Part shown: piece by piece, positions 6,557-64,000 of the stretch
How the letters are laid out: every line of letters begins with the position of its first letter
Position numbering within the stretch: the stretch's first letter is position 1
From: Solidesulfovibrio carbinoliphilus subsp. oakridgensis
GTDB lineage: Bacteria > Desulfobacterota > Desulfovibrionia > Desulfovibrionales > Desulfovibrionaceae
Assembly (NCBI RefSeq): GCF_000177215.2
Contig: NZ_CM001368.1
Coordinates: forward strand, 2,803,001-2,867,000
DNA: 64,000 nt
Reading direction: 5' to 3'
Made by a program: the position numbers and the translations under genes
The notes under the pieces: generated by a model
Database searches by the model: none
What the model saw: only the letters and a program-made list of their open reading frames with translations
Told to the model about the DNA's origin: nothing

Positions 6557-6580
6557 ATAAAGAAAAGAGAACCGGGGGAT

Positions 6581-6608
6581 GGAACCTTTTTTTGCAAAAA
6601 AAGGTTCC
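6581..6608. terminator. Perfect T/A-rich palindrome, bidirectional terminator candidate
   Basis: Each arm is GGAACC followed by seven T and one G, and the whole 28 bp is self-complementary. Transcribed from either side it gives a GC-capped, A/U-rich hairpin with an internal U-run, so it may end transcription of the upstream Usp gene. A close relative of this hairpin occurs inside the 38.2 kb repeat copy. Confidence 0.5.
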
Positions 6609-6703
6609 CTCCCCCGGACCCCCTCCTTCCCAAAAAACGCTTCAAGGGGTGGAGCGGCTTTTCGGCCCCTTCTTTTCTGCGGCGCTTCGCCGCCGGCGCA
6701 CCG

Positions 6704-6771
6704 TATGGCCGGCTTTGCCGCGACGGGCTGGCCGGCTTTGCGGCCTGCGGGTCGCGGCAAAGCCGGCCATA
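6704..6771. mobile_element. TA-flanked 64-bp palindromic (MITE-like) insertion
   Basis: A 64-bp segment (6706-6769) has 19-bp perfect inverted ends (TGGCCGGCTTTGCCGCGAC and complement) and is flanked on both sides by TA. The corresponding site in the 63.8-64.0 kb repeat copy reads straight through with a single TA. This is what a short non-autonomous insertion with a TA target duplication would look like. The interior holds a third, direct copy of TGGCCGGCTTTGC (6729-6741). It has no coding capacity; the family is not identified. Confidence 0.6.
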
Positions 6772-6957
6772 ACCGTCGATGCCCCGTCGCCCGACCGTAG
6801 CCTTCCCAACTTCCGCCCACCCCGTTCGGGGGGTCCGGGGGGGTGATCCCCCCCGGCAGGTCCAGGGCAGCGCCCTGGCGGGGCCTGGGGCAGCGCCCCA
6901 GCGGGGTCCGGGGCAGAGCCCCGGCCGCCGGAGGTTTCTCCCACGTTCCGCGTGTCC

Positions 6958-28599: not shown

Positions 28600-30831
28600 A
28601 TGACCACCCTTCCCCTGCCCGTCGATCTGCCCGAGGCCGCCGTCAACGCCAACGCCCAGGTGGTCCTGGCCAAGCGCTATCTCATGAAGGGGCCGGACGG
28701 AAGCCCGCTCGAGGACGTGCGCGGGCTTTTCTGGCGCGTGGCCGCGGCCATCGCTGCCGAGGAGGCCAAGTACGGCAACTCCCCCTTCGCCCCCGAGGAC
28801 CTGGCCCGCAGGTTCTACGACCTGATGGTCGGCATGCGGTTTCTGCCCAACTCCCCCACCCTCATGAACGCCGGCACGCCCCTTGGCCAGTTGGCCGCCT
28901 GCTTCGTGCTGCCGGTCGGCGATTCCATGGAGGAGATCTTCGACGCCGTGAAGTTCGCGGCCCTGATCCACAAGTCCGGCGGCGGCACCGGCTTCTCCTT
29001 CTCGCGCCTGCGGCCGAAAAAGGCCCGGGTCGGGTCCACGGGCGGCGTGGCCTCGGGACCGGTCTCGTTCATGCGGATTTTCAACACCGCCACCGAACAG
29101 GTCAAGCAGGGCGGCACCAGGCGCGGGGCCAACATGGGCATCCTGCGCGTGGATCACCCGGACATCCTGGAATTTATCACCTGCAAGGAACGCGAAAACG
29201 AGCTGCAAAATTTCAACATCTCGGTGGCGCTCACCGAACGGTTCATGCAGGCCGTGGAAAAAGGCGAGGACTACGACCTGATCGACCCGCGCGACAAGGC
29301 GGTCGTCGGCCGGCAAAGCGCGGCCGACGTCTTCAGCCTCCTCGTCCGCAAGGCCTGGGAATCCGGCGATCCGGGCATCGTCTTCATCGACCGCATCAAC
29401 CGCGACAACCCCACCCCGGCCCTTGGCGAAATCGAGTCCACCAATCCTTGCGGCGAGCAGCCGCTCCTCCCCTACGAGGCCTGCAACCTCGGTTCCGTCA
29501 ATCTGGCCGTGTTCCACGACCCGGCCGCGCCGGACGGCATCGATTGGGCGGGGCTCACCGAGACCGTGCACCTGGCCGTGCGCTTTCTCGACAACGTCAT
29601 CGACGCCTCGCGCTATCCCCTGGACCAGATCACGGACATGGTGCAAGCCAACCGCAAGATCGGCCTGGGGCTCATGGGATTTGCCGACCTGCTCTACCTC
29701 CTGCACATCCCCTACGACAGCACCGAGGCCCTGAAACTGGCCGAAAGGATCATGGATACCATCCAAGGCGAGTCCAAGTCCGCCTCCAAGGCCCTGGCCG
29801 CCGAACGCGGCCCCTTCCCGGCCTACCCGGACTCCATCTTCGGCAAGCGCAACCTCGGCCCCTACAGGAACGCCACCACCACCACCATCGCCCCCACCGG
29901 CACGCTGTCCATCATCGCCGGCTGCTCGTCGGGCATCGAGCCGCTCTTCGCCCTGGCCTTCTCCCGCCATGTCATGGACGGCGAAAAGCTGGTCGAGGCC
30001 AACGTCCATTTCGTCAACGCCATGAAGGAAGCCGGCGCCTACTCCGACAGCCTCATGGAGGAGGTCACGCGCAAGGGCTCCATTGCCCACATCGGCATGC
30101 TGCCGGACGCACTGCGCGAGGTCTTTGTCACGGCCATGGACATCGAACCGGTCTGGCACCTCAAGATGCAGGCCGCCTTCCAGAAGTACACCGACAACGC
30201 CGTGTCCAAGACCGTCAACCTGCCAAACGACGCCACCCAGGACGACATCCGCGAGATCTATCGGCTGGCCTACGAACTGGGCTGCAAGGGCGTCACCGTC
30301 TACCGCGACGGCTGCAAGGCCGGCCAGGTCCTGTGCACCGGCGACGGTGCGACGCCCGCCCCGGCCAAGACCCAAAGCAAGGTCCGCATGCGGCCGGATA
30401 TCGTCCTCGGCTTCACCCAGAAGGTCAAAACGGGCCTCGGCGATCTCTACCTGACCGTCAACGAAATCGACGGCAAGCCCTTCGAGGTCTTTGCCACCAT
30501 CGGCAAGTCCGGCCGGTCCGTGACCGCCAAGGCCGAGGCCATCGGCCGGCTGGTGTCCCTGGCCCTCCGGGCCGGGGTGGAAGTGTCCTCCATCGTCGGC
30601 CAGCTCAAGGGCATCGGCGGCGAGAACCCGGTTTTCCAGAAAAAGGGCCTGCTCCTGTCCATCCCGGACGCCGTGTCCTGGGTGCTCGAAAACCGCTACC
30701 TGCAAGGCCGCAAGATCCAGGACGACACCGGCAACCTCGGCCATCCCCAGTGCCCGGACTGCGGCGGCGAACTGGTCTTCGAGGAAGGCTGCCACGCCTG
30801 CAAGGCCTGCGGCTACACCAAGTGCGGGTAG
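28600..30831 (+). CDS. nrdJ: B12-dependent (class II) ribonucleotide reductase
   Basis: 743 aa. The barrel contains LPNSPTLMNAGTPLGQLAACFVLPV (first redox Cys), HKSGGGTGFSFSRLRP, and the active-site loop NPCGEQPLLPYEACNLGSVNL. A phosphate-binding TIAPTGTLSIIAG loop follows. The C-terminal ~130 residues include a zinc-finger-like end CPDCGGELVFEEGCHACKACGYTKCG, typical of the NrdJ family that uses adenosylcobalamin. It reduces ribonucleotides with or without oxygen and complements the anaerobic nrdD system in this window. An A/G-rich GCGAGGAACC stretch precedes the ATG. Confidence 0.96.
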   Translation: MTTLPLPVDLPEAAVNANAQVVLAKRYLMKGPDGSPLEDVRGLFWRVAAAIAAEEAKYGNSPFAPEDLARRFYDLMVGMRFLPNSPTLMNAGTPLGQLAACFVLPVGDSMEEIFDAVKFAALIHKSGGGTGFSFSRLRPKKARVGSTGGVASGPVSFMRIFNTATEQVKQGGTRRGANMGILRVDHPDILEFITCKERENELQNFNISVALTERFMQAVEKGEDYDLIDPRDKAVVGRQSAADVFSLLVRKAWESGDPGIVFIDRINRDNPTPALGEIESTNPCGEQPLLPYEACNLGSVNLAVFHDPAAPDGIDWAGLTETVHLAVRFLDNVIDASRYPLDQITDMVQANRKIGLGLMGFADLLYLLHIPYDSTEALKLAERIMDTIQGESKSASKALAAERGPFPAYPDSIFGKRNLGPYRNATTTTIAPTGTLSIIAGCSSGIEPLFALAFSRHVMDGEKLVEANVHFVNAMKEAGAYSDSLMEEVTRKGSIAHIGMLPDALREVFVTAMDIEPVWHLKMQAAFQKYTDNAVSKTVNLPNDATQDDIREIYRLAYELGCKGVTVYRDGCKAGQVLCTGDGATPAPAKTQSKVRMRPDIVLGFTQKVKTGLGDLYLTVNEIDGKPFEVFATIGKSGRSVTAKAEAIGRLVSLALRAGVEVSSIVGQLKGIGGENPVFQKKGLLLSIPDAVSWVLENRYLQGRKIQDDTGNLGHPQCPDCGGELVFEEGCHACKACGYTKCG

Positions 30832-30840
30832 TAAAAAGAG

Positions 30841-31036
30841 GAAGATGCCTCCGGCGGCCAGGAGAGGCTCTGCCTCTCCTGGACCTCTCCGCCGGGGGGC
30901 GTCACGCCCCCCGGACCCCCCGAATGGGGGCACGAAACGACAAAGGGCGGTTCTGCCATGGGACCGCCCTTTGTCGTTTCCAGGTCGGGTGGGTCCGGGA
31001 GGGGGTGACCCCCTCCCGGCCGCCGGAGGCATCTTC
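30841..31036. repeat. Dispersed hairpin repeat element, copy 2 (complete)
   Basis: The element has perfect 19-bp inverted ends (GAAGATGCCTCCGGCGGCC at 30841-30859 and its complement at 31018-31036). Inside are a hairpin AGGAGAGG/CCTCTCCT, a second GGGGGGC/GCCCCCC, a long perfect stem around 30933-30980 (arm GAAACGACAAAGGGCGGT) and a last hairpin CCGGGAGGGGG/CCCCCTCCCGG. It lies exactly between the convergent nrdJ and deacetylase genes, and could act as a two-way terminator. Confidence 0.85.
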
Positions 31037-31054
31037 TCTTCTCTCTTCTCCACT

Positions 31055-32371
31055 TCACCCCGTGTAGCTGGCGTAGTTCTTCCCGACGCGGTCGATGAGC
31101 TGCAGATGGCGGAATTCGCCTTTGATCTGCCCGGCTTCGTAGATGCGGTAGGCTTCCTCGACGCATTTTTCGCAGGCGCCGAGGGGCGCTTCCACGCCGA
31201 GGCAGAGGGGATTTCGGGTGGATTCGGTTTCGTAGGTCATAACGCCCCGGCAGTGGTCGCACAGGCGGACGGACTCGGTCTGGTACTCGGTGATGGCGTC
31301 GGTGTCGTAGTAAAGGGTCTTGCGGCGGGTGAACCAGCCATTCACGAGGTCGCCCTTGCCCGGGCCCTTGGGATGGCGGGCCAGCTTCAGGATGTCGCGG
31401 CAGACGTCCTCGATGTAGGCCGTGACCTTGGCCGGCTGGCGGATGGCCTCGGGATCGAAGCCGGGTTCGCGCACGTGGGAGTAGTCGAGGCCGGCCATGG
31501 ACAGGACCAGGCCGAGGTTGACGTAGGGCAGGGCGCCCTGGATGGCGTAGCCGCCTTCGAGGACGGCGATGTCGGCCTGCAGCAGCTCGGTCAGTTGGGC
31601 ATAGCCCTGGGCCGAGAAGGCCATGTCCGTGATGGGGTCGGAGAAGTGGTTGTCCTGGCCGGCGGAATTGACGATGAGATCGGGCTTGAAGTCCTCGATC
31701 AGCGGCATGACGACCTCGCGCATGGCGAAGAGGAACCCTTCGTCCGAGGTGCCGGGGGGGAGCGGCACGTTGACGGTCGCGCCGAGGGCCTGGGGGCCGC
31801 CCTGTTCGGTCGGGTAGCCGGTGCCGGGATAGAGGGTGCGGCCGTCCTGGTGGAGCGAAATGAAAAGGGTGTCCGGGTCGTGCCAGTAGACGTCCTGGGT
31901 GCCGTCGCCGTGGTGGCAGTCGGTGTCCACGACGGCGACGCGAAGGGGTCCGAACCGTTCGCGCAGCCATTCGATCATCACGGCTTCGATGTTGATGTTG
32001 CAAAAGCCGCGCGCCCCGTGGACCACCTTCATGGCATGGTGGCCGGGCGGCCGGACCAGGGCGAAGGCCTTTTGGGAGTCTTTTTCAAGGACCGCCCGGG
32101 CGGCCCGGATGGCCCCGCCGGCCGAAACGAGGTGGGAGGGCGTGGTGACGGCGGCGACTTCGGGGAAGCAGAAGTGGACGCGGGAGACGTCGGCGGCCGT
32201 GGCCAGGTCGGGTTTGAGTTCGCGTATGCCCGCGATGTCGAAGACGCCCTCTTCCCGCAACTGGTCCTGGGTGTAGAGGAGGCGCTCCTGGCGTTCCGGG
32301 TGGGTCGGGGAGATGGCCCAGTCAAAGGCCGGGAAAAAGACGATGCCAAGGCTCCGGCCGGCTTTCAGCAT
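31055..32371 (-). CDS. Histone deacetylase / acetylpolyamine amidohydrolase family
   Basis: 438 aa. The zinc-hydrolase core shows LVRPPGHHA (catalytic His-His), GFCNINIEAVMIEWL, VAVVDTDCHHGDGTQDVYW (zinc ligand Asp/His) and LIVNSAGQDNHFSDP (zinc Asp), then VLEGGYAI. The bacterial enzymes deacetylate acetylpolyamines or small molecules. A ~100-residue C-terminal extension carries two CxxC-like pairs (LCDHCRGV and ACEKCVEE), unusual for the family and possibly zinc-binding. The ATG overlaps the stop of the hydantoinase gene by seven bases, so the two are coupled. Confidence 0.92.
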   Translation of the reverse strand: MLKAGRSLGIVFFPAFDWAISPTHPERQERLLYTQDQLREEGVFDIAGIRELKPDLATAADVSRVHFCFPEVAAVTTPSHLVSAGGAIRAARAVLEKDSQKAFALVRPPGHHAMKVVHGARGFCNINIEAVMIEWLRERFGPLRVAVVDTDCHHGDGTQDVYWHDPDTLFISLHQDGRTLYPGTGYPTEQGGPQALGATVNVPLPPGTSDEGFLFAMREVVMPLIEDFKPDLIVNSAGQDNHFSDPITDMAFSAQGYAQLTELLQADIAVLEGGYAIQGALPYVNLGLVLSMAGLDYSHVREPGFDPEAIRQPAKVTAYIEDVCRDILKLARHPKGPGKGDLVNGWFTRRKTLYYDTDAITEYQTESVRLCDHCRGVMTYETESTRNPLCLGVEAPLGACEKCVEEAYRIYEAGQIKGEFRHLQLIDRVGKNYASYTG

Positions 32372-34047
32372 GACTGGGACACCGCCTTTTTGTAGGCCGA
32401 AAGGATGCCCGGCCGGACCTGGCAGGCCACCCGGATGTTGTGGCCGACCTGGACCTGGCCCTCGACCATGGGAAACGAGGAGAGCTCCACGGTCTCGACC
32501 GGGGCCTCGCCTGGGTCCGCGCCGGTGGCGGAGAGGTAGTCGCGCAGGCGGGTGGCGGCTTCGCCTTCGGCCGCGGCCGGGCTGAAGTTGCCGGCCACGG
32601 ACCGGGCCACGCCCAGAGACGGGATGGTCAGCCGGCCGGTGGCCGTGTCCGCGAAAAGCTCCACCGAGAAGGTCGGCCGGGCCAGGGCCGCGCCGATGGC
32701 GTTGGCCACGGCAAAGCTCTCGGGCACCACCACCTCTTCGGAAAAGGCGTCCTGCAACAGGGCCGAGAGGGCCAGGGCCGGGCCGCCCATGACGTAGACC
32801 CGGGTCGGCTTGACGGTCCTGCCTTCGAGCAGGTCGAAGATGGTGTAGACCGGCCGGTCGTTTATTTCCCGGACAAAGGCCGCCACTTCCGAGCGGATCT
32901 GGTTGACGGCGTTTAAAATGGCGGCGTCGGCCACCTCTTCGGGATCGAAGCCGAAGGGCGCGCCGGCGGCGGCGATGCCTTGGTAGGAGGCGCGCGGGTC
33001 GCCAAGGGCGATGACGTTTTGGATATTGAGGGCATCGACCAGGGTCGGGACCGGGCCGCCAAGGGCCATGGGCGGCCCCAGGCGGCGCGGGCCGACCCGG
33101 ACCGATTCGCGGCTGACGGTCAGGGCCGAGTCGCCGCCGACGCCGATGGACCGGGTGCGCAGGGCCCGGACCAGGGTCGGGCGGCCGGCGATGGCGATGC
33201 CCTCGTTTTCGATCAGCGGGGCCCCGGCGGCAAAGACCGCGATGTCGGTGGTGGTGCCGCCGATGTCGAGGATGACCGAATCCTCGACGATGTCGCACAC
33301 GGCAATGATACCCATGACCGAGGCGGCAGGGCCCGACAGGATGGACTGGACCGGCAGCGACCGGGACACGGTAAGCGGCATGGTGCCGCCGTCGGCCTTG
33401 AGCACGTTGATGATGCCGGGCGCGAGGCCGAGTTCCGTGACCGACTGTTCCACGGCATCGCAAAACCGGTTGTAGATGCGCCACACCGCACTGTTGCAGT
33501 AGGCCGTGGCGATGCGCCGGCCAAAGCCCAGGCGGCCGGAAAAGGCGTGGCCGAGCGACACGCAGTCCGAGCGGCCGGCGAGCAGGGCGGCCAGGGCCAT
33601 CTCCTGGTCCGGGTGGCGGGTGGAGAATTTGGTGACCGCCGCATGGACCCGGACTCCGGCCTCGTGGCAGGCGGCCACGGCGGCCCGGGCCGCGTCGGCG
33701 TCCAGGGGGGCGGTTTCCCGGCCCCGGTGGTCGATGGCCCCGGGCAGGACGAAATAGTGGTCCCCGATCCGGTAGGCCTCGGGGTCGATGCCAGGGCCCC
33801 CGGAGACGAGGACGCCGACCGGGTCGGCCGTGCCCTCGATGATGGCGTTGGTGGAAAGGGTGGTGGACAGGTTTAAGCGGGCCACGCCGCCGGGCCCGGC
33901 CACGGCCACGATGCTCGAGAGGACCTCGCGGATGGAGGCGAGCAGGTCGTCGTGGTTGGTGCGCAGCTTGGCGCAGGCCACAACGCCGTCCCGGCCGATC
34001 AGGACCGCGTCCGTATGGGTGCCGCCGACGTCGATGCCAAGAAGCAT
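32365..34047 (-). CDS. Hydantoinase/oxoprolinase family protein
   Basis: 560 aa. The N-terminal ASKHA-fold nucleotide-binding part begins MLLGIDVGGTHTDAVLIGRDG and the second phosphate loop is VILDIGGTTTDIAVF. The residues between, STTLSTNAIIEGTADPVGVLVSGG, are typical of HyuA-like subunits. These enzymes open hydantoin, oxoproline or related cyclic amides, or carboxylate ketones, using ATP, usually with a HyuB-type partner. No such partner is here. Coupled by overlap to the deacetylase, hinting at a shared acylated or cyclic amide substrate. AGGGG precedes the ATG. Confidence 0.9.
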   Translation of the reverse strand: MLLGIDVGGTHTDAVLIGRDGVVACAKLRTNHDDLLASIREVLSSIVAVAGPGGVARLNLSTTLSTNAIIEGTADPVGVLVSGGPGIDPEAYRIGDHYFVLPGAIDHRGRETAPLDADAARAAVAACHEAGVRVHAAVTKFSTRHPDQEMALAALLAGRSDCVSLGHAFSGRLGFGRRIATAYCNSAVWRIYNRFCDAVEQSVTELGLAPGIINVLKADGGTMPLTVSRSLPVQSILSGPAASVMGIIAVCDIVEDSVILDIGGTTTDIAVFAAGAPLIENEGIAIAGRPTLVRALRTRSIGVGGDSALTVSRESVRVGPRRLGPPMALGGPVPTLVDALNIQNVIALGDPRASYQGIAAAGAPFGFDPEEVADAAILNAVNQIRSEVAAFVREINDRPVYTIFDLLEGRTVKPTRVYVMGGPALALSALLQDAFSEEVVVPESFAVANAIGAALARPTFSVELFADTATGRLTIPSLGVARSVAGNFSPAAAEGEAATRLRDYLSATGADPGEAPVETVELSSFPMVEGQVQVGHNIRVACQVRPGILSAYKKAVSQSC

Positions 34048-34172
34048 TCAAAACCCCTAGCATCATGTACGGCCGGCGTCGAGACGTGGCAGCCGGGGAA
34101 GCCTGCGAGACGATCCCGTCCGCGAACCGCACCGCCAGGGCGGGAACGCTTTTGGGCCGGGAGGCGCCGGGT

Positions 34173-34634
34173 TCAACCCCGCCGGTAGCGCCCCATGAGG
34201 GTGGCCGCGGCCAGGATGTGGTCCTTGGCCGCCCGCAGCAGGTCGGCCTTGGTGGCGCCGGGGGCGAGGTTGAGCAGGGCGTCCAGGGCGTAGAGCGTGA
34301 AGTAGTAGCGGTGGGTGCCGCGCGGCGGGCAGGGGCCGCCGTAGCCGAGGCGCCCCCAGCTGTTGCGGCCGGCCAGGCTCCCGTCCGGATACCGCTCGGC
34401 CCCGTGCAGGCCTTCGGGCAGGCCCGGGGTGCCGGGAGAGAGGTTATAGAGCACGAAGTGGTCCCAGACCCCGGCCGGGGCGTCGGGGTCGTCGCAGACC
34501 ACGGCCAGGCTGGCCGTGCCGGCCGGGATGCCGGAAAAAACGAGCGGCGGCGACAGGTCGGCCCCGTCGCAGGTGTGGCGCTTGGGGATGTCGCCTTCGT
34601 GGGCAAAGGCCGGCGACGTCAGGGTCATGGCCAT
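34173..34634 (-). CDS. YbhB/YbcL family PEBP-like protein
   Basis: 153 aa. Typical Raf-kinase-inhibitor-like motifs: HTCDGADLSPPLVFSGIPAGTASLAVVCDDPDAPAG, WDHFVLYNLSP, GGPCPPRGTHRYYFTLYALD. The prokaryotic members are small cytoplasmic or periplasmic proteins of uncertain role; no signal peptide is seen here. GGAGG lies five bases before the ATG at 34634. A second in-frame ATG is six bases later. Confidence 0.94.
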   Translation of the reverse strand: MAMTLTSPAFAHEGDIPKRHTCDGADLSPPLVFSGIPAGTASLAVVCDDPDAPAGVWDHFVLYNLSPGTPGLPEGLHGAERYPDGSLAGRNSWGRLGYGGPCPPRGTHRYYFTLYALDALLNLAPGATKADLLRAAKDHILAAATLMGRYRRG

Positions 34635-34717
34635 GCGAGCCTCCTCGGACCGCGATGCGGCCGGTCCGTGCCGCGTAAGGCACCCTGTTGCGGTGGCCGG
34701 CTTCCTCCCCTGCGGGG

Positions 34718-34742
34718 AGCCGGGGGAAGGCATCCCCCGGCT
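34718..34742 (-). terminator. Hairpin after the aldolase gene
   Basis: AGCCGGGGG and CCCCCGGCT form a 9-bp perfect stem with a 7-base loop, 40 bases beyond the aldolase stop. Just before it on the minus strand is CGGGGC-TTTTTT-GCCCCG. Together they probably end the aldolase transcript. Confidence 0.45.
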
Positions 34743-34781
34743 GGGAGGCGAGGCGGGGCAAAAAAGCCCCGGCCGGCCCGG

Positions 34782-36056
34782 TTAGTCGTCGAAATCACCT
34801 TCCGGCCCCTTGTCCTTGGACAGGCTCTTGGCCCGCTCCAGGATCTGCTCCCGGGTCCAGGCGGCCGGGGCCTCGATGACGCCGGCCTTGGGGCCGAGGT
34901 CATAGGAGCCGGCGGCGAGCAGGGCTTCGATGGCCAGGGGGGCGGTGTCCCTGGCATTGAAGACGTCGGTCAGGAGCCAGGCCACGAACTCGGCCACGGC
35001 TTCGGACATGCGCTCCCGCACGGCCCGGGGCTGGGCCAGCAGCTTGTTTTCGAAAACGCAGTTGAGCTTCTTGTAGTCCCCGGCCTTGATGGCCTTGCCG
35101 CCGGCATAGGCCGCCATTTCGGCCCACAGGGCCTCGTCGAGGCCCTTGCCCGGCTCCTTGATGAAGTTGCCGGCCGCGTCCATGATGGCGTTGCCGTAGT
35201 CGTTGACGGCCACACCCCAGGAGATCATCTGCAGGGCCGTGGCCACGTTGGCCTTGGTGGTGGCGGTCTTGGCCGCGATTTCCTTGAGCTTCTCCGAGGA
35301 GTTGCCCGACGTGCCGTGCTGGGCCCCGGAGATGCCGTAGGGGGCGAGCGCCTCGTGGATGCGGGCGGTCAGGTCCACCTGGATGCCCGTGGCCGAGGCC
35401 TCGATGCCGTGGGTGGTGCCGTTGTTGAGGGCGATCCAGTCCGGGTGGATGCCGTTGGCATTGAGCCCCTGGATGAGGAACAGGGCCTCCTCGGGGGTGG
35501 ACAGGCCGGACTTGCCCTTGATCTCGCCGACCTCGGTCTCGTAGCCGGCCCAGGACGGGACAAAGGGGGCCAGCTCGATGTTGGCCAGCAGGTTTTCCTC
35601 GTCCGGCAGGTGGGAGGCGTCGATGGCGATGGAGGTGATCCCGGCCTCGAACAGCGTCGGGATCTCGAGCTTGGCCTCGGCCACGTCGCCCGGCTTCTTG
35701 ATGCCGTAGTGGTCGGCGTGGATGGCCACCGGCACGGTGATGCCGAGCTCGTTCATGGCCTGGTCGGCCTGCCGGGCGATGTTCCACATGGTCACGTTGC
35801 AGTAGTTGGATTCCGAGCGGGCGATTTCGAGGATCACGGCGGCGTTGGCCCGCTGGGCCGCGAGCAGGGCCCCGCGCAGCACGAAGTTGCTGCGGGAGTT
35901 GGCCGCGATGGTCATGGCGTGGCCCTTTTTAAGCATGGCCCGGTCCACGGCCTTGCCGCTGACGAGAAGGGCCCTCGAATGCGGGAAAAGCTTTTTGACG
36001 TTCGGCGGACGGCCGACGGAAAGGGCTTGTTCGAACGCGGTATCCGACGTGGTCAT
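34782..36056 (-). CDS. fba: Class II fructose-bisphosphate aldolase
   Basis: 424 aa. Zinc site and barrel motifs include VPVAIHADHYGIKK (metal His and catalytic Asp region), SIAIDASHLPDEENL and GIEASATGIQVDL, with ISGAQHGTSGNSSEKL for a further zinc His. It splits fructose-1,6-bisphosphate in glycolysis and gluconeogenesis. It is longer than the usual 300-360 residues because of N- and C-terminal extensions, as in the longer class II subgroup. The gene stands alone on the minus strand. The next gene upstream encodes an unrelated small protein. Confidence 0.93.
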   Translation of the reverse strand: MTTSDTAFEQALSVGRPPNVKKLFPHSRALLVSGKAVDRAMLKKGHAMTIAANSRSNFVLRGALLAAQRANAAVILEIARSESNYCNVTMWNIARQADQAMNELGITVPVAIHADHYGIKKPGDVAEAKLEIPTLFEAGITSIAIDASHLPDEENLLANIELAPFVPSWAGYETEVGEIKGKSGLSTPEEALFLIQGLNANGIHPDWIALNNGTTHGIEASATGIQVDLTARIHEALAPYGISGAQHGTSGNSSEKLKEIAAKTATTKANVATALQMISWGVAVNDYGNAIMDAAGNFIKEPGKGLDEALWAEMAAYAGGKAIKAGDYKKLNCVFENKLLAQPRAVRERMSEAVAEFVAWLLTDVFNARDTAPLAIEALLAAGSYDLGPKAGVIEAPAAWTREQILERAKSLSKDKGPEGDFDD

Positions 36057-36172
36057 GCATTCCTCCTTGCTTCGTGGCCGGCCGCGCGGCCCTTGGCATG
36101 CGTGATGGCGGCGGACCGGGACGCGGCCCGCCGGTGGTACTTGTCCTTTCTTCCAGAAACCGGGCGTCGGCG

Positions 36173-36616
36173 CTACTGCGCCGGGAAAATATCCTGGACC
36201 CCGTGGCGCTCCAGGATGGCCCTGGCGGCCGGGTTGTCGGCCACGGCCCGCAGGAGGGCGGCCACGCTCGAAGCGATGCGGGCCCGCTCCACCGGGAAGG
36301 GAATCTCGGCCAGCCGGGCGGCCAGGGCGTCAAGGCGGGCCAGGTTGGCGTCGCCGGGCTCAGACTGGCACTTGCCGAGAAGATCGCAGGACACCACGTC
36401 GCCGCCGGCCGCCGGCAGACCGGCCACGAAGACCTCGCCGCCGCAGACCGAGCAGGTGAGGGCCCCGGTCTCGGTCTCGGCCAGGGGAAAGGTCCATTGG
36501 GACGTGGTGTTGCCGCAGGCGTCGTATTTGCGCAGGTGCAGAAAACGGCTCTCCGCGGCCCAGCCGAAGTCGGCGTGGGTGGGGTCATTGACACAGAAAA
36601 GCTTGCGCGACAGCAT
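36173..36616 (-). CDS. Conserved-looking hypothetical protein with CxxC
   Basis: 147 aa, soluble. The N-terminal part contains FCVNDPTHADFGWAAESRFLHLRKYDACGNTTSQWTFP and TCSVCGGEVFVAG, suggesting a zinc ribbon made from two separated Cys groups. The C-terminal half is helical (LDALAARLAEIPFPVERARIASSVAALLRAV). AAGGAG lies about five bases before the ATG. It precedes the aldolase gene on the same strand with a gap of about 115 bases. Family and function are not recognised. Confidence 0.7.
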   Translation of the reverse strand: MLSRKLFCVNDPTHADFGWAAESRFLHLRKYDACGNTTSQWTFPLAETETGALTCSVCGGEVFVAGLPAAGGDVVSCDLLGKCQSEPGDANLARLDALAARLAEIPFPVERARIASSVAALLRAVADNPAARAILERHGVQDIFPAQ

Positions 36617-36793
36617 GCCCGCTCCTTTTGCGCCCGATGGGGCGCATCCTTTCCAGCCATAGTACGGCTGGCCGAAACAATCAACAAAGAGGCCGGATTC
36701 GCCCCCTTCGGCCGGGGCTTTTCCCTTTCATCCCGCACGGCTTTCTGGTAGCAGCAACCCACGCCGGGATATGCCTTCCGGCCTGGAGCGAGC

Positions 36794-37696
36794 ATGGCCG
36801 GATACGCCTACGTCCTTTGCGCCGCCGCCCTGTGGGGGCTGATCGGCCCCCTTTCCAAACTGTCCTTTGCCGCCGGCATGGACACGGTGGAAGTGGCTTT
36901 TTGGCGCGCGGCCGTGGCCTGGGTGTTTTTCGCCGGCCAGGCCGTCAAAAACCGCGAGACCCGCATCGCCCCGCGCGACCTGCCGGCCGTGATCGGCTTC
37001 GGCGTGGCCGGCATCGCCGGCCTGTTCGGGGCCTATGTCGTGGCCGTGGAGGCCGGCGGCGCGGCCCTGGCCTCGGTGCTCCTCTACACCGCCCCGGCCT
37101 GGGTGGCCCTCATGTCCTGGCTGTTTCTGAAGGAGTCCATGGGCGGCTACAAGGTGGCGGCCGTCATGGCCACCATCGCCGGCGTGGCCGGGGTCAGCCT
37201 GGGACCCGGCTTCTCCGGGCAGGCGGCCTTCAGTGCCCGGGCCATCGGTTTCGGCCTGCTCTCGGGCGTGACCTACGCCCTCTACTACATCTTCGGGAAA
37301 TACTACCTCGGCCGCTACCGCACGCCCACGCTCTTTCTTTATGCCCTGCCGGTCGGAGCGTTCGCCATGCTGCCCTTTGTCCACTTCACCCGGCCGACCC
37401 TGGCCGGGGCGGTGCCGTGCCTGGCCCTGGCCGTCCTGTCGACCTACGGGGCCTATTCGCTCTATTACGCGGGCTTAAAGCGCCTGGAGGCCACCCGGGC
37501 GGCGGTGGTGGCCACGCTCGAGCCGGTCATCGCGGCGGTCCTCGCCTACGCCATGTTCGGCGAACGGTTCGGCACGCTCGGCTATCTCGGGGCCGGACTC
37601 ATCATCGGCTCGGTGCTCCTGACCGTGTGGGACGGGGCCCGGGAGCGGCTGCGCGCGCCGTTGCCCACGGCGGGCCAGACCGGCGCGGCAGGCTAA
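36794..37696 (+). CDS. EamA/DMT-family transporter
   Basis: 300 aa, about ten membrane helices in two EamA repeats (first AYVLCAAALWGLIGPLSKL, second AIGFGLLSGVTYALYYIFGKYYL). The second repeat ends with ATRAAVVATLEPVIAAVLAYAMFGE, the hallmark of this drug/metabolite exporter superfamily. The substrate cannot be told. GGAG lies five bases before the ATG. The Pro/Ala C-terminal tail is cytoplasmic. Confidence 0.92.
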   Translation: MAGYAYVLCAAALWGLIGPLSKLSFAAGMDTVEVAFWRAAVAWVFFAGQAVKNRETRIAPRDLPAVIGFGVAGIAGLFGAYVVAVEAGGAALASVLLYTAPAWVALMSWLFLKESMGGYKVAAVMATIAGVAGVSLGPGFSGQAAFSARAIGFGLLSGVTYALYYIFGKYYLGRYRTPTLFLYALPVGAFAMLPFVHFTRPTLAGAVPCLALAVLSTYGAYSLYYAGLKRLEATRAAVVATLEPVIAAVLAYAMFGERFGTLGYLGAGLIIGSVLLTVWDGARERLRAPLPTAGQTGAAG

Positions 37697-37760
37697 AGAA
37701 GGCCCGGCCCGGGTCCGATAGGAGAAAGAGAAGCACGGCCCCGGTCGGACGGGAAATCCA

Positions 37761-37807
37761 CGAAACCCCACGGAACCCCACGGAACCCCACGGAACCCCA
37801 CGGAACC
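37761..37807. repeat. 10-bp tandem repeat against the flaG start codon
   Basis: Unit CGGAACCCCA occurs 4.7 times: a variant (CGAAACCCCA, 37761-37770), three exact copies (37771-37800) and a partial copy that touches the ATG at 37808. Each unit brings a GGAA that could act as a weak ribosome site. Copy number changes would alter the spacing or the promoter, not the reading frame. Confidence 0.85.
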
Positions 37808-38155
37808 ATGGACAAGATCGACACCCTTTTCCCCGCCCCGGCCGCCGTCCAGGCAGCCCAGGCGTCCCAGGCCGGCCAAACGACCCAGGCCTCGGGCCCG
37901 GCCCGGCCCCAGCCGCCCACGCCAGCGGCCGCCAACGAGCACCAGCGCGACGCCGATACCGTCGACATCGCGGCCATCTTCCCCTCCCGCCACATCCGGC
38001 TGGTCATCGACGAGGCCACCGGCATCGTCCAGGCGCAAGTCCGCGACGCGGCCACCGGCCGGGTGCTCCGAAAGCTCCCGGACGACGAATGGCTCAAGGA
38101 ATCGGCCATCCTGCGCGAATTCGCCAGCCAGGCCATCATCGACAAGTCCGCCTGA
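37808..38155 (+). CDS. flaG: FlaG-family flagellar protein
   Basis: 115 aa. A disordered Ala/Gln/Pro-rich first half (QAAQASQAGQTTQASGPARP) is followed by the FlaG domain IRLVIDEATGIVQAQVRDAATGRVLRKLPDDEWLKESAILREF. FlaG proteins influence flagellar filament length. No other flagellar gene is adjacent. There is no good Shine-Dalgarno sequence; the start is directly preceded by a 10-bp tandem repeat, so its translation may depend on that repeat. A hairpin repeat element follows the stop. Confidence 0.85.
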   Translation: MDKIDTLFPAPAAVQAAQASQAGQTTQASGPARPQPPTPAAANEHQRDADTVDIAAIFPSRHIRLVIDEATGIVQAQVRDAATGRVLRKLPDDEWLKESAILREFASQAIIDKSA

Positions 38156-38167
38156 AGAAAAAAGCAT

Positions 38168-38346
38168 GCCTCCGGCGGCCGGGGGAACCTTTTTTGAAAA
38201 AAAGGGTTCCCCCGGACCCCTTCCCAAAAACTTTCAAAGGGGGCGCGGGGATCTGGCCCCCCCATCGAGGGGGTCCGGGGGGGATCATTCCCCCCGGCCG
38301 CCGGAGGCCTCTTTCCTTTTCTCGCCCCGGCCGCCGGAGGCCTCTT
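38168..38346. repeat. Dispersed hairpin repeat element, copy 3 (reaches into a gene)
   Basis: Left end GCCTCCGGCGGCC at 38168-38180, right end GGCCGCCGGAGGC at 38296-38308, and a second right end at 38329-38341. The left hairpin has arms of GGGGGAACC followed by T and A runs, related to the 6.58 kb palindrome; the right hairpin is GGGGGGGA/TTCCCCCC. The stop codon and last ~22 codons of the minus-strand gene lie within the doubled right end. Confidence 0.8.
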
Positions 38347-38947
38347 CTCGTCCCTCGCCCCGGGCGCGCAGGTCGTCGAAGCCGTGGCGCACGGCCTCCA
38401 TGCGGTCGTGGTAGCCCTGGGCGTCGCCGTATTCCAGGAAGAAGCGGTAGCGGGAGTGGGTGGCCTTGGGCGTGCGGGCGTGGCGGATGGGGCACCAGTA
38501 CTGCTCGGTGCGGCCGGCCACTTCGCGCACGTAGCCGAGCAGGCCGTTGAAGTAGCCGCAGTAGGCGCAGTTGAGCTTTTCGATCCAGTTCAAATAGGAC
38601 AGGGCGTAGCGGTCGATGGCGATGTACTCGCCGCGCCGGACCTTGGGGATGCCGTAGATGGGGAAGCACACCGTCTGGTAGATGCTGACCGTCAGGTCCA
38701 TGAGCAGGGCCGGCAGGAGCGCGCCCCAGATGACCGGAATGGTCAGGAGCATCAAAAACCCGGACTCGTAGACGTAGGACGCCCACTTCTTGGCCAGAAG
38801 CCGGTGCTGGCGCCGCACTTCCTTGGTGAAGCGGACCTTCTCGCGCCCGATGGTGGAGCGGACATCGGCGCCGGCCTCGTCGAACGCCTCGGACAGCTCC
38901 TTCTCCAAGGCCTCCAACCGCACGATGATGTCGTCGATTTTCGTCAT
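38285..38947 (-). CDS. Conserved hypothetical membrane protein, tail encoded by repeat
   Basis: 220 aa. An N-terminal coiled coil (IDDIIVRLEALEKELSEAFDEAG) is followed by two close membrane segments (about 60-95, SGFLMLLTIPVIWGALLPALLM). A conserved-looking Cys-rich part follows (NCAYCGYFNGLLGYVREVAGRTEQYWCPIRHA), possibly metal-binding. I recall similar proteins in other proteobacteria, but no function. The tail GREEASGGRGEKRKEASGGRGE is translated from a dispersed repeat, so the ancestral protein probably ended near residue 197. GGAG lies six bases before the ATG. Confidence 0.8.
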   Translation of the reverse strand: MTKIDDIIVRLEALEKELSEAFDEAGADVRSTIGREKVRFTKEVRRQHRLLAKKWASYVYESGFLMLLTIPVIWGALLPALLMDLTVSIYQTVCFPIYGIPKVRRGEYIAIDRYALSYLNWIEKLNCAYCGYFNGLLGYVREVAGRTEQYWCPIRHARTPKATHSRYRFFLEYGDAQGYHDRMEAVRHGFDDLRARGEGREEASGGRGEKRKEASGGRGE

Positions 38948-38966
38948 GTGCGTCTCCGAAGGAATT

Positions 38967-39120
38967 AAGATGCCTCCGGCGGCCGGGGGGGATCATCCCC
39001 CCCGGACCCCCTGGAAGGGACAGCAGGAAACAGGGCGCGAGAGGGCGACGGCAGCCCCCGGTCTCCCGTTAGGGAGGGTCCGGGAGGGGCTTAGCCCCTC
39101 CCGGCCGCCGGAGGCATCTT
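38967..39120. repeat. Dispersed hairpin repeat element, copy 4 (complete)
   Basis: Perfect 18-bp inverted ends (AAGATGCCTCCGGCGGCC and complement). The left hairpin is CCGGGGGGGA-TCA-TCCCCCCCGG, the right hairpin CCGGGAGGGGC-TTA-GCCCCTCCCGG. The right hairpin differs from that of copy 2 by a paired change of G-C to C-G at the loop-closing position. It lies between two minus-strand genes. Confidence 0.85.
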
Positions 39121-39137
39121 TTCTTCTCTTTCTCTTC

Positions 39138-39455
39138 CTACTTGTAATCTTTGTCGGCCGCTTTGACGGCCTGGATGAGGCGCATGAATTCGACGCCGGC
39201 GTCGTGCATGTGGGTGTAGTGCTCGGCGTAGTCGATGTCGATGCCGGACATGGACTGGGCCACCCGGATGTCGTCCAGGAATCGGGCGAGGGTGGCGGGG
39301 TCGGGCTCGGGGCCGAACTGGCGGCCGATGGCGTCCTTAATGGCGGCGCGCACGGCCGGGACGGTGTCGGGACGCAGGCGCGAGAGGATGGCGTCCAGGG
39401 TTTGGGCGGAGGCGGGGGTGAGGGTCGGGGCGGGCGAGGCGGCGCTATTGTCCAA
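39138..39455 (-). CDS. Small hypothetical protein coupled to livF
   Basis: 105 aa, soluble and mostly helical (TLDAILSRLRPDTVPAVRAAIKDAIGRQF, DIDYAEHYTHMHDAGVEFMRLIQAVKAADKDYK). It starts with TTG inside the last codons of livF (11-base overlap), with AAGG a few bases before, so it would be translated by coupling at the end of the liv operon. No family is recognised. The coupling suggests, but does not prove, a link with branched-chain amino acid uptake. Confidence 0.6.
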   Translation of the reverse strand: MDNSAASPAPTLTPASAQTLDAILSRLRPDTVPAVRAAIKDAIGRQFGPEPDPATLARFLDDIRVAQSMSGIDIDYAEHYTHMHDAGVEFMRLIQAVKAADKDYK

Positions 39456-59504: not shown

Positions 59505-59572
59505 CCACCCCCGTCCGGGGGGTCCGGGGGGGATGATCCCCCCCGGCGGGTCCAGGGGCAGAGCCCCACATC
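59505..59572. repeat. Dispersed hairpin repeat element, copy 5 (short)
   Basis: Two modules of the family: GGTCC-GGGGGGGAT..ATCCCCCCC-GGCGG and GGTCC-AGGGGC-AGA-GCCCC. The terminal GCCTCCGGCGGCC motif is missing. It sits between the convergent channel and SulP genes. Confidence 0.65.
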
Positions 59573-63807: not shown

Positions 63808-64000
63808 GAATGCCTCCGGCGGCCGGGGGGGATTTTCCACCCCCCCCGGACCCCCCGAACGGGGTGGGCGGGAGTTGGGGCGGCAACGTCGGGCGGCGGG
63901 GCATCGACGGTTACGGTGCGCCGGCGGCGAAGCGCCGCAGGGGGAGCGAACGATGCGCCCCCTTGGGAGTTTTTGGGGAAGGAGGGGGTGTGGGGGAGGG
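63808..64000. repeat. Dispersed hairpin repeat element, copy 6 (runs off the window)
   Basis: It begins with GCCTCCGGCGGCC and a GGGGGGG/CCCCCCC hairpin with GGACC. The part 63841-63940 is the reverse complement of 6677-6850 in copy 1, with few changes, but without the 64-bp palindrome. The right end is cut by the window edge. Confidence 0.8.

Follow-up and report, generated by a model that had tools for sequence, protein, structure and literature searches.

Dispersed gene-end repeats of Solidesulfovibrio carbinoliphilus combine covarying hairpins with a candidate third strand

Between a gene that we take to be nrdJ-like, as named from its protein ending (stop codon TAG at 30829-30831), and a convergent gene with a stop near 31055, the chromosome of Solidesulfovibrio carbinoliphilus subsp. 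oakridgensis carries a paired, inverted element at positions 30841..31036 of the 64-kb stretch of DNA analyzed here (the window). The element recurs in related forms at other gene ends, and it raises the question of what keeps its hairpins self-complementary as their sequences change and of what such a structure might do where two genes meet. An initial annotation, made from the letters of the window, had described shared ends at six places, joined by GGACC or GGTCC linkers held to be constant, and had read the differing hairpins as the outcome of selection on an RNA or cruciform structure, with targets of a REP-type transposase among the possible roles.

The element at 30841..31036 has perfect terminal inverted repeats of 19 bp, as does, with 18 bp, a second element at 38972..39115; both had been reported in the initial annotation and were read directly here. 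In the left unit (plus strand), the end motif GCCTCCGGCGGCC (30847..30859), located 15 nt past the stop codon, is followed by hairpin 1 (AGGAGAGGC-TCT-GCCTCTCCT, 30860..30880), by the mirror linker, or putative third strand, of this hairpin (ACCTCTCC, 30883..30890; arm type TCCTCT, 7/7 triads under the code described below), and by a second hairpin (GGGGGGCG-TCA-CGCCCCCC, 30894..30912) with its own C-run at 30916-30921. The right unit, read on the plus strand, presents its G-rich strand at 30987..31017, with a predicted third strand GGGTGGG, the loop TCC and the hairpin GGGAGGGGG-TGA-CCCCCTCCC, which also follow the triad code; the right end motif (31018..31030, minus strand) and then the T-rich ATCTTCTCTTCTC come next. 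Folded as single-stranded DNA, 30841..31036 forms one closed branched structure at -95.8 kcal/mol, compared with -46.9 (sd 4.1) for shuffles. Between the two units lies a central hairpin (AAACGACAAAGGGCGGTTC..GACCGCCCTTTGTCGTTT, 30935..30979) that resembles an ordinary bidirectional terminator; the centres of some other pairs likewise hold an ordinary-looking terminator hairpin, and others hold unrelated, non-conserved DNA.

Elsewhere in the window the six places fared unequally. With up to one mismatch the end motif was matched 12 times, in some cases inside genes (shuffles: mean 1.78, maximum 6), and exact copies lie at 30847-30859/31018-31030, 38168-38180/38296-38308, 38329-38341, 38972-38984/39103-39115 and 63812-63824. 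Shared ends were thus found at 30.84, 38.17 and 38.97 kb; the place at 63.81 kb (63812..64000) has one end only and is the left half of an element whose far end, read beyond the window, is a long hairpin without motif. The composite element at 6572..6935, with a long hairpin on the left, several short hairpins in a row and, near 6828, a class I triplex call, has only a single end with one mismatch (6923-6935), and at 59517..59571 related hairpins with triplex-type linkers are present but the end motif is absent. Among the paired elements, the one at 38168..38308 contains in its left unit a long hairpin (38181-38213) with the mirror linker CCCCTTCCCAAAAACTTT at 38217-38234, and the one at 38972..39115 lies between two tandem minus-strand genes and has an RNA fold of -114.9 (shuffles, -82.3, sd 4.2). 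The extra end-motif copy at 38329..38341 (minus strand) stems from a 33-bp tandem duplication of the neighbouring right end. A minus-strand gene at 38.4 kb (38282-38380) overruns the stop point of its relatives and reads into this repeat; its extended tail contains EASGGRGE twice, from the same 33-bp duplication.

In larger samples (copies from 464 and then 864 kb), the half-element has the order purine-rich flank, GCCTCCGGCGGCC, one or more hairpins, and GGA with a C-rich linker. The end motif is 13 bases long and near-palindromic; its own CC closes the hairpin with the following GG, after which come the A and the C-rich linker. The flank mostly ends in AAGAT and, across 94 units, is 70-99% purine at each position from -17 to -2, with an A fraction of 0.33-0.51 at -14 to -6 and of 0.96 at -2; A makes up 15% of the 25 bases past other stop codons. 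Loops are mostly T-N-A, so that the hairpin amounts to a palindrome with a one-base centre. Half-elements occur alone or as inward-facing pairs. The 109 exact copies in 864 kb comprise 50 in 25 inward pairs (123-378 bp), which carry the terminal inverted repeats of the MITE criterion (50/109 copies), and 59 others that are single or have a partner lacking the exact motif; neighbours less than 450 bp apart face inward in 25 cases, in the same direction in 3 and outward in 0. Stem preferences differ by species, with stems differing between species as whole blocks (2-114 motif copies per source). A second, C-first hairpin after GGA was considered as a further instance of per-copy covariation and rejected, as 141/224 distinct units had at least three pairs compared with 84 in shuffles and about 162 in chimeras; this hairpin is a feature of the family, not per-copy covariation.

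Covariation in hairpin 1 was assessed in an alignment of 54 copies, from 82 listed among 162 foldable units (stems of 8-11, loop of 3) of this and related genomes. In the 11-pair helix, 97.7% of cells hold standard pairs (78.3% when shuffled) and 126 cells are changed on both sides (34 when shuffled), with one-sided changes in 4 cells; offsetting the partner by 1-3 columns lowers pairing to 35-67%. In this alignment, neither the tally of pairs changed on both sides (8 vs 7.4) nor that of pair types (16 vs 18.5) is in excess of the shuffles. Because the aligned copies had been picked as foldable, which lowers the count of broken pairs, an unselected test was applied to all 109 exact copies in 864 kb: 97 of them contain, closed by CC..GG, a complement to the five bases with which their arm begins, compared with 33.5 expected when arms are permuted (sd 4.3, maximum 49). 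A test with a fixed 9-base arm gave self matches of at least 8 in 52/109 copies vs 6% between copies with different arms; as short stems do not reach that length, the five-base test took its place. The observation that the hairpins differ yet remain self-complementary was thereby borne out, and the excess of compensatory over random change in the stems, the lack of which had been named beforehand as a refutation, was found. G-U pairs are few in hairpin 1 (21/1150, 1.8%), as they are in convergent terminators (2/88, 2.3%), with higher values in tandem-gene terminators (13/295, 4.4%) and other hairpins (63/966, 6.5%). The rarity of one-sided changes together with the few G-U pairs hints at a need for both strands or at DNA-level homogenisation; as proof of action at the DNA level, the scarcity of G-U pairs was set aside, being suggestive only. 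Gene conversion, or templated correction of one copy by another, probably also contributes to the perfection of the palindromes.

The linkers, which had been regarded as constant, vary and track the hairpin that they follow. Specifically, the linker mirrors the 3' arm, as in AGGAGAGG then ACCTCTCC, AGGAGGGG then ACCTCCCC, AAAGGG then AATCCC or AAACCC, and GGGAGGG then CCCTCCC or CCCACCC. In 117 distinct combinations, mirror similarity is 9.5 sd above permuted linkers. For 40 distinct long hairpins, the linker approximates the parallel complement of the 5' half (12.85, compared with 10.06, sd 0.28, for permuted linkers; 0/300) and follows changes in both stem and loop, although it often keeps C opposite C-runs of the 5' arm and so departs from a plain complement. 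A strand swap would make the linker repeat the 3' arm directly; this reading was tried and rejected, since it scores lower than the mirror reading in the distinct combinations (z 4.7 vs 9.5), in the long hairpins (6.26 vs 12.85) and at T-bearing arms (0.763 vs 0.911).

The mirror relation agrees with the purine-motif code for triplex DNA. The fraction of positions forming a triad is 0.957 for 16 arm types (permuted, 0.744, sd 0.032; 0/5000) and 0.897 for 111 of the 130 stem-linker combinations (permuted, 0.752, sd 0.011), where the rule was first noticed on the tested genomes and the permutations ignore shared descent of modules. Every triad is formed in 12/16 arm types, compared with 3.0 (maximum 10) under permutation. 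At the 106 arm positions with T, the linker has A 41, T 50, C 11 and G 4 times (permuted: 24, 19, 56 and 7), hence A or T in 91/106 vs about 44. In 400 kb of two congeners (G011 and G005) that had not contributed to the module set, 26/99 rows formed all triads vs 9.4 under permutation (maximum 18 in 2000), many rows reading the outer side of the palindrome, which is noise; as both genomes belong to the same genus and had already been part of the long-hairpin scan, this test is only partly independent. No significant triad match was seen in the distant copies described below from Victivallis (7 rows only; 114/2000 permutations reach the observed value) or from the assembly KLAP81 (21 rows; 721/2000).

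A re-implemented ITxF-like scan (three tracts sharing one purine strand, stem 6-15, loops 1-6, triads GGC/AAT/TAT), which is laxer than ITxF in allowing one mismatch even at stem 6, called class I structures with a stem of at least 7 in 73/109 exact units and none in mono-shuffled 864 kb; at a stem of at least 6, these numbers were 82/109 and 11 calls, respectively. With stem 6 and no mismatch, the scan made 109 class I calls in 864 kb, of which 76 overlap exact-motif units; the other 33 are located in convergent or tandem gaps (28), a divergent gap (1) and genes (4). Because the linker is a mirror image of the arm and changes together with it in line with the purine-motif triplex code, the unit resembles a class I potential intrastrand triplex; variable linkers that track the hairpin are better read as a sign of an intrastrand triplex in the DNA than of an RNA hairpin or cruciform alone. 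The selection proposed in the initial annotation stands as selection on, or active maintenance of, the fold, but the third strand had been overlooked. Judged by its sequence, the unit looks like a class I PIT/TM element with a predicted triplex, distinguished by a sequence of its own, by its end motif and by its location at gene ends.

Placement was analyzed with gene calls from a simple script of our own rather than a standard gene finder, for gaps of at least 25 bp. In 864 kb, exact units occupy 39/99 convergent, 33/321 tandem and 2/114 divergent gaps (convergent vs divergent, p = 4e-13; tandem vs divergent, p = 0.002), which extends to this larger sample the earlier observation that the repeats lie mostly after genes and between convergent genes; a previous gap count had also taken 7 one-mismatch units, and later tests used the 109 exact ones. 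A stop codon is faced by 84/109 exact copies, at a median of 19 nt past the stop (29/84 within 15 nt, 66/84 within 30 nt). Tests of polarity omit, of the 109, 9 units called inside genes, 3 in divergent gaps and 1 at an edge. Since facing a stop is automatic in a convergent gap, only distance is informative there, and the outer end is nearer its gene in 59/60 units (18/19 among unpaired units); in tandem gaps, the preference for facing the stop is weak (24/36, p = 0.065; unpaired, 21/29, p = 0.024). Beyond the end motif, the antisense reading is 48% T, and 24/84 stop-facing units have at least five T in the first 8 bases past the end; a hairpin with a downstream T-tract is likewise present in 24/84 vs 2.2 in shuffles, some of these 24 being alternative folds of a partner unit. 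A terminator consensus scan around the 30.84-kb element gave three weak five-pair sites (0.4 in shuffles), all made of the end motif itself, and no site at the central hairpin.

A genome search that returned only a few copies had been named in the initial annotation as speaking against a dispersed family; instead, the 4.22-Mb genome contains 363 exact end motifs (179 + 184), whereas the reversed control pattern occurs 5 times. Each of the 14 genomes available for the genus, this one included, has 117-363 exact motifs; a count across 101 genomes gave 0-88 for other genera of Desulfovibrionaceae and 0-4 for the order outside the family. When 297 genomes were sampled from across the phylum, high counts were confined to the family itself, with 0-20 and mostly 0-4 copies elsewhere; the highest count outside the family, 20 exact motifs vs 0 in the control, is found in one genome of another family (G161). 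Victivallis vadensis (Lentisphaerota) has 96 exact copies vs 7 in the control; of the first 15 of these, 13 face a stop codon, 12/13 of them at 1-15 nt past it and 8/13 with a start opposite. The end motif in V. vadensis often opens a longer conserved repeat with further hairpins. The Myxococcota-labelled assembly KLAP81 has 88 exact copies vs 9, and 15 loci comprise 3 facing a stop, 1 facing a start, 8 in long ORFs and 3 without a left gene, a placement that is unreliable because the same simple ORF rule put 14/30 loci of the S. carbinoliphilus genome inside long ORFs. The motif in V. vadensis and KLAP81 may reflect transfer, assembly contamination or convergence. Plasmid records gave three short matches, solely in Pseudoroseomonas and Sagittula.

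Comparison of orthologous sites indicates that places are partly kept while stems are replaced. Among 29 site-pairs with both flanks present in relatives, which count the same G011 sites twice and include one motif (591450) inside a gene, 8 have the exact motif and 21 do not; by eye, several of the 21 have another hairpin of like type at the same gene end and a few look empty. With few clean empty sites, no clear target-site duplication was seen by eye. After nrdJ, paired units with differing stems are present in 4/14 genomes of the genus (this one included), and at least 7 of the other ten have a different hairpin, by eye. After the gene at 38.3-38.9 kb, the 11 relatives with a readable end comprise 3 with exact units, 3 with degenerate ones (up to 72 nt from the stop) and 5 with none. 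A second hairpin type, with other ends (GCGAGAGGGGGACCC...) and, by eye, a mirror linker, occurs after nrdJ in the congeners G011 and G004.

How might such elements act? We consider it an even call that these dispersed gene-end repeats, in which a hairpin and a third strand could form a class I purine-motif intrastrand triplex, act as two-way transcription barriers when paired; insulation of gene ends is their probable role. The triplex would fold on the G-rich strand, as in GGGTGGG-TCC-GGGAGGGGG-TGA-CCCCCTCCC, and would be capped by GCCTCCGGCGGCC and the purine-rich flank. In a stop-facing unit, the G-rich strand is the template for the abutting gene and the non-template strand for a polymerase arriving from the other side; the unit may thus be passed by the polymerase of its own gene and hinder one from the opposite side, by means of a triplex or an R-loop involving the G-rich non-template strand, along with an RNA hairpin and the T-rich tract outside the end motif. 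This polarity, permissive for the own gene and obstructive for the opposite one, is inferred from strand composition. An inverted pair would then constitute a two-way barrier at which each transcript ends before the neighbouring gene. The barrier model is in keeping with the T-rich stretch past the ends and with the plain hairpins that take the place of units in relatives; the weak T-tracts and the lack of terminator activity of related E. coli elements (see below) count against it. A broader claim, which we hold only tentatively and think rather doubtful, is that selection has kept a triplex family at gene ends, in which individual bases of hairpin and third strand coevolve, a single genus has several stem classes, and units serve as polar transcription barriers by their orientation to the stop. 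If this were true, the V. vadensis and Myxococcota-labelled copies would imply a device exchanged or reinvented across phyla.

Several other explanations bear on the same observations. The repeats could be selfish, REP- or MITE-like DNA that was spread by an enzyme or by gene conversion and survived where it does least harm, after genes; a copy number in the hundreds, ends that are perfect inverted repeats, the inward orientation of pairs, species-specific favourite stems, the absence of the exact motif from 21/29 site-pairs and a patchy distribution across phyla would all fit. This explanation seems unlikely, as the arm-linker triad match is left unexplained by passive spread and the different hairpins of relatives at the same gene end suit a role at that place. 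An enzyme of the expected type was also missing: a profile for Y1_Tnp (PF01797) that found the family in 5/14 control genomes found 0 in the S. carbinoliphilus genome, the richest in copies of its genus, so that the RAYT gene proposed as a check was not detected there. Across the genus, 8/14 genomes have Y1_Tnp (117-308 motif copies) and the 6 without it have 121-363; four Y1 loci inspected showed no end motif within about 3 kb, and no GTAG or CGTC tag was visible by eye in the 54 aligned copies. Mobilisation by a RAYT, and with it the suggested role as REP-type transposase target, was rejected on the absence of Y1_Tnp from this genome, the motif-free Y1 loci and the lack of a clear relation to copy number. 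A purely RNA-level role, as bidirectional terminators, 3'-end mRNA stabilisers or translation control with an incidental mirror linker, also appears improbable. Placement past stop codons, strong RNA folding, the T-rich tract outside the ends, the plain hairpins found instead after nrdJ orthologues and the central terminator-like hairpins of some elements are what it would predict, and distances of up to 15 nt from the stop (29/84 units here, 12/13 stop-facing V. vadensis loci) would suit translation control; 55/84 stop-facing units lie beyond 15 nt, however, and a C-rich RNA offers no reason for linker A opposite arm T, seen in 41/106 positions. Hairpin 1 also has few G-U pairs relative to tandem terminators and other hairpins, though not relative to convergent ones.

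Template switching yields inverted or direct copies, never mirror copies. This makes it very unlikely that the compensatory changes arose without selection, through template switching or through gene conversion maintaining perfect palindromes, since the linker match lies outside the products of template switching; the large excess of two-sided (126) over one-sided (4) changed cells in the alignment and the whole-block stem differences between species are what that process would give, but the aligned copies were foldable by choice and so have few broken pairs, and the unselected 109-copy test was used instead. We give still less credence to retention of the G-rich strand as a G-quadruplex rather than a triplex: GGGTGGGTCCGGGAGGGG does contain four G-runs, but AAAGGG stems with AATCCC or AAACCC linkers have two G-runs only and nevertheless form 6/7 triads, and GGGGAGG-TCC-AGGAGGGG is mirrored, a feature that a quadruplex does not need.

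The reading as a triplex-forming, gene-end barrier can be placed among known systems. Bidirectional intrinsic terminators are GC-rich stems between convergent genes with a T-rich tract past each end; the elements here share the GC-rich stems in convergent gaps and the T-rich outside ends, but differ in their weak T-tracts, in the 13-base motif that separates hairpin from tract, and in their large multi-branched fold with a third strand. Rfam covariance models gave 0 matches in the window at gathering thresholds, and the 9 matches below threshold in 30780-39200 had a best E of 0.59. The closest likeness is to the PIT/BoxC/TM_ECO repeats, for which the available portion of Holder et al. (2015, PMC4666352) defines ITxF classes I-IV. 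As in PIT elements described there, a hairpin is joined by a third strand mirrored about a short loop, with the triads G.G-C, A.A-T and T.A-T, and the elements are intergenic, numerous and at times in inverted pairs. Unlike TM_ECO (class II), the elements here are class I, with the third strand first on the G-rich strand, and unlike PIT elements as described in that text, they have a constant 13-base end motif with a gene-end preference and several stem classes per genome with covarying third strands. The TM_ECO consensus, CCCTCNCCC-N3-6-GGGNGAGGG-N3-GGGNGAGGG, had 0 matches as an exact pattern on either strand of 864 kb. According to the same portion of PMC4666352, E. coli PIT/TM elements had no promoter or terminator activity on testing and formed no stable triplex in vivo by DMS footprinting, and TM_ECO showed no strand-orientation bias in E. 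coli MG1655; the main text of that paper mentions neither Desulfovibrio nor Victivallis. The elements resemble REP, BIME and REPIN sequences, as the accessible parts of PMC3733652 and PMC12306157 present them, in being short extragenic palindromes found downstream of genes as singlets and inverted dimers; unlike RAYT-linked REPs, including GTAG/CGTC-tagged ones, they have no visible tag and no RAYT found in their own genome, and unlike REPs generally they have an extra third strand and an end motif able to pair only between units. Translation control has been reported for REPs of E. coli located no more than 15 nt from a stop codon, a rule cited in the available part of PMC12306157. Among the matches listed in searches of the open literature (Desulfovibrio repeats, REP/RAYT, mirror repeats, intrastrand triplex and sequence strings; mostly titles and beginnings of abstracts), the family was undescribed. 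PIT repeats are known as a kind, but none of those matches describes the present family of sequences, its end motif or its position at gene ends, nor, most notably, a third strand that covaries with its hairpin.

Bacterial potential-triplex repeats have been reported without proof that the third strand is used in cells, as far as the available portion of PMC4666352 goes. Hundreds of units in several stem classes with a covarying third strand provide comparative evidence for the triplex along with a set of natural variants, and the elements offer a testable proposal for gene-end insulation in sulphate reducers.

A lone unit of like build (motif, long hairpin, AGACCCCCTCC and AAACTTTTT) was encountered in Ruminococcus sp. 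YE71, whose genome has only 2 exact motifs. In the S. carbinoliphilus genome, several repeat copies carry an insertion sequence, presumably IS481-like, inside the hairpin (locus L049 near 9498, L175 near 7074 and L032 near 10479); these insertions have the common inner end ...GGTATGAACCGGGTACATG, as if the palindrome were the target.
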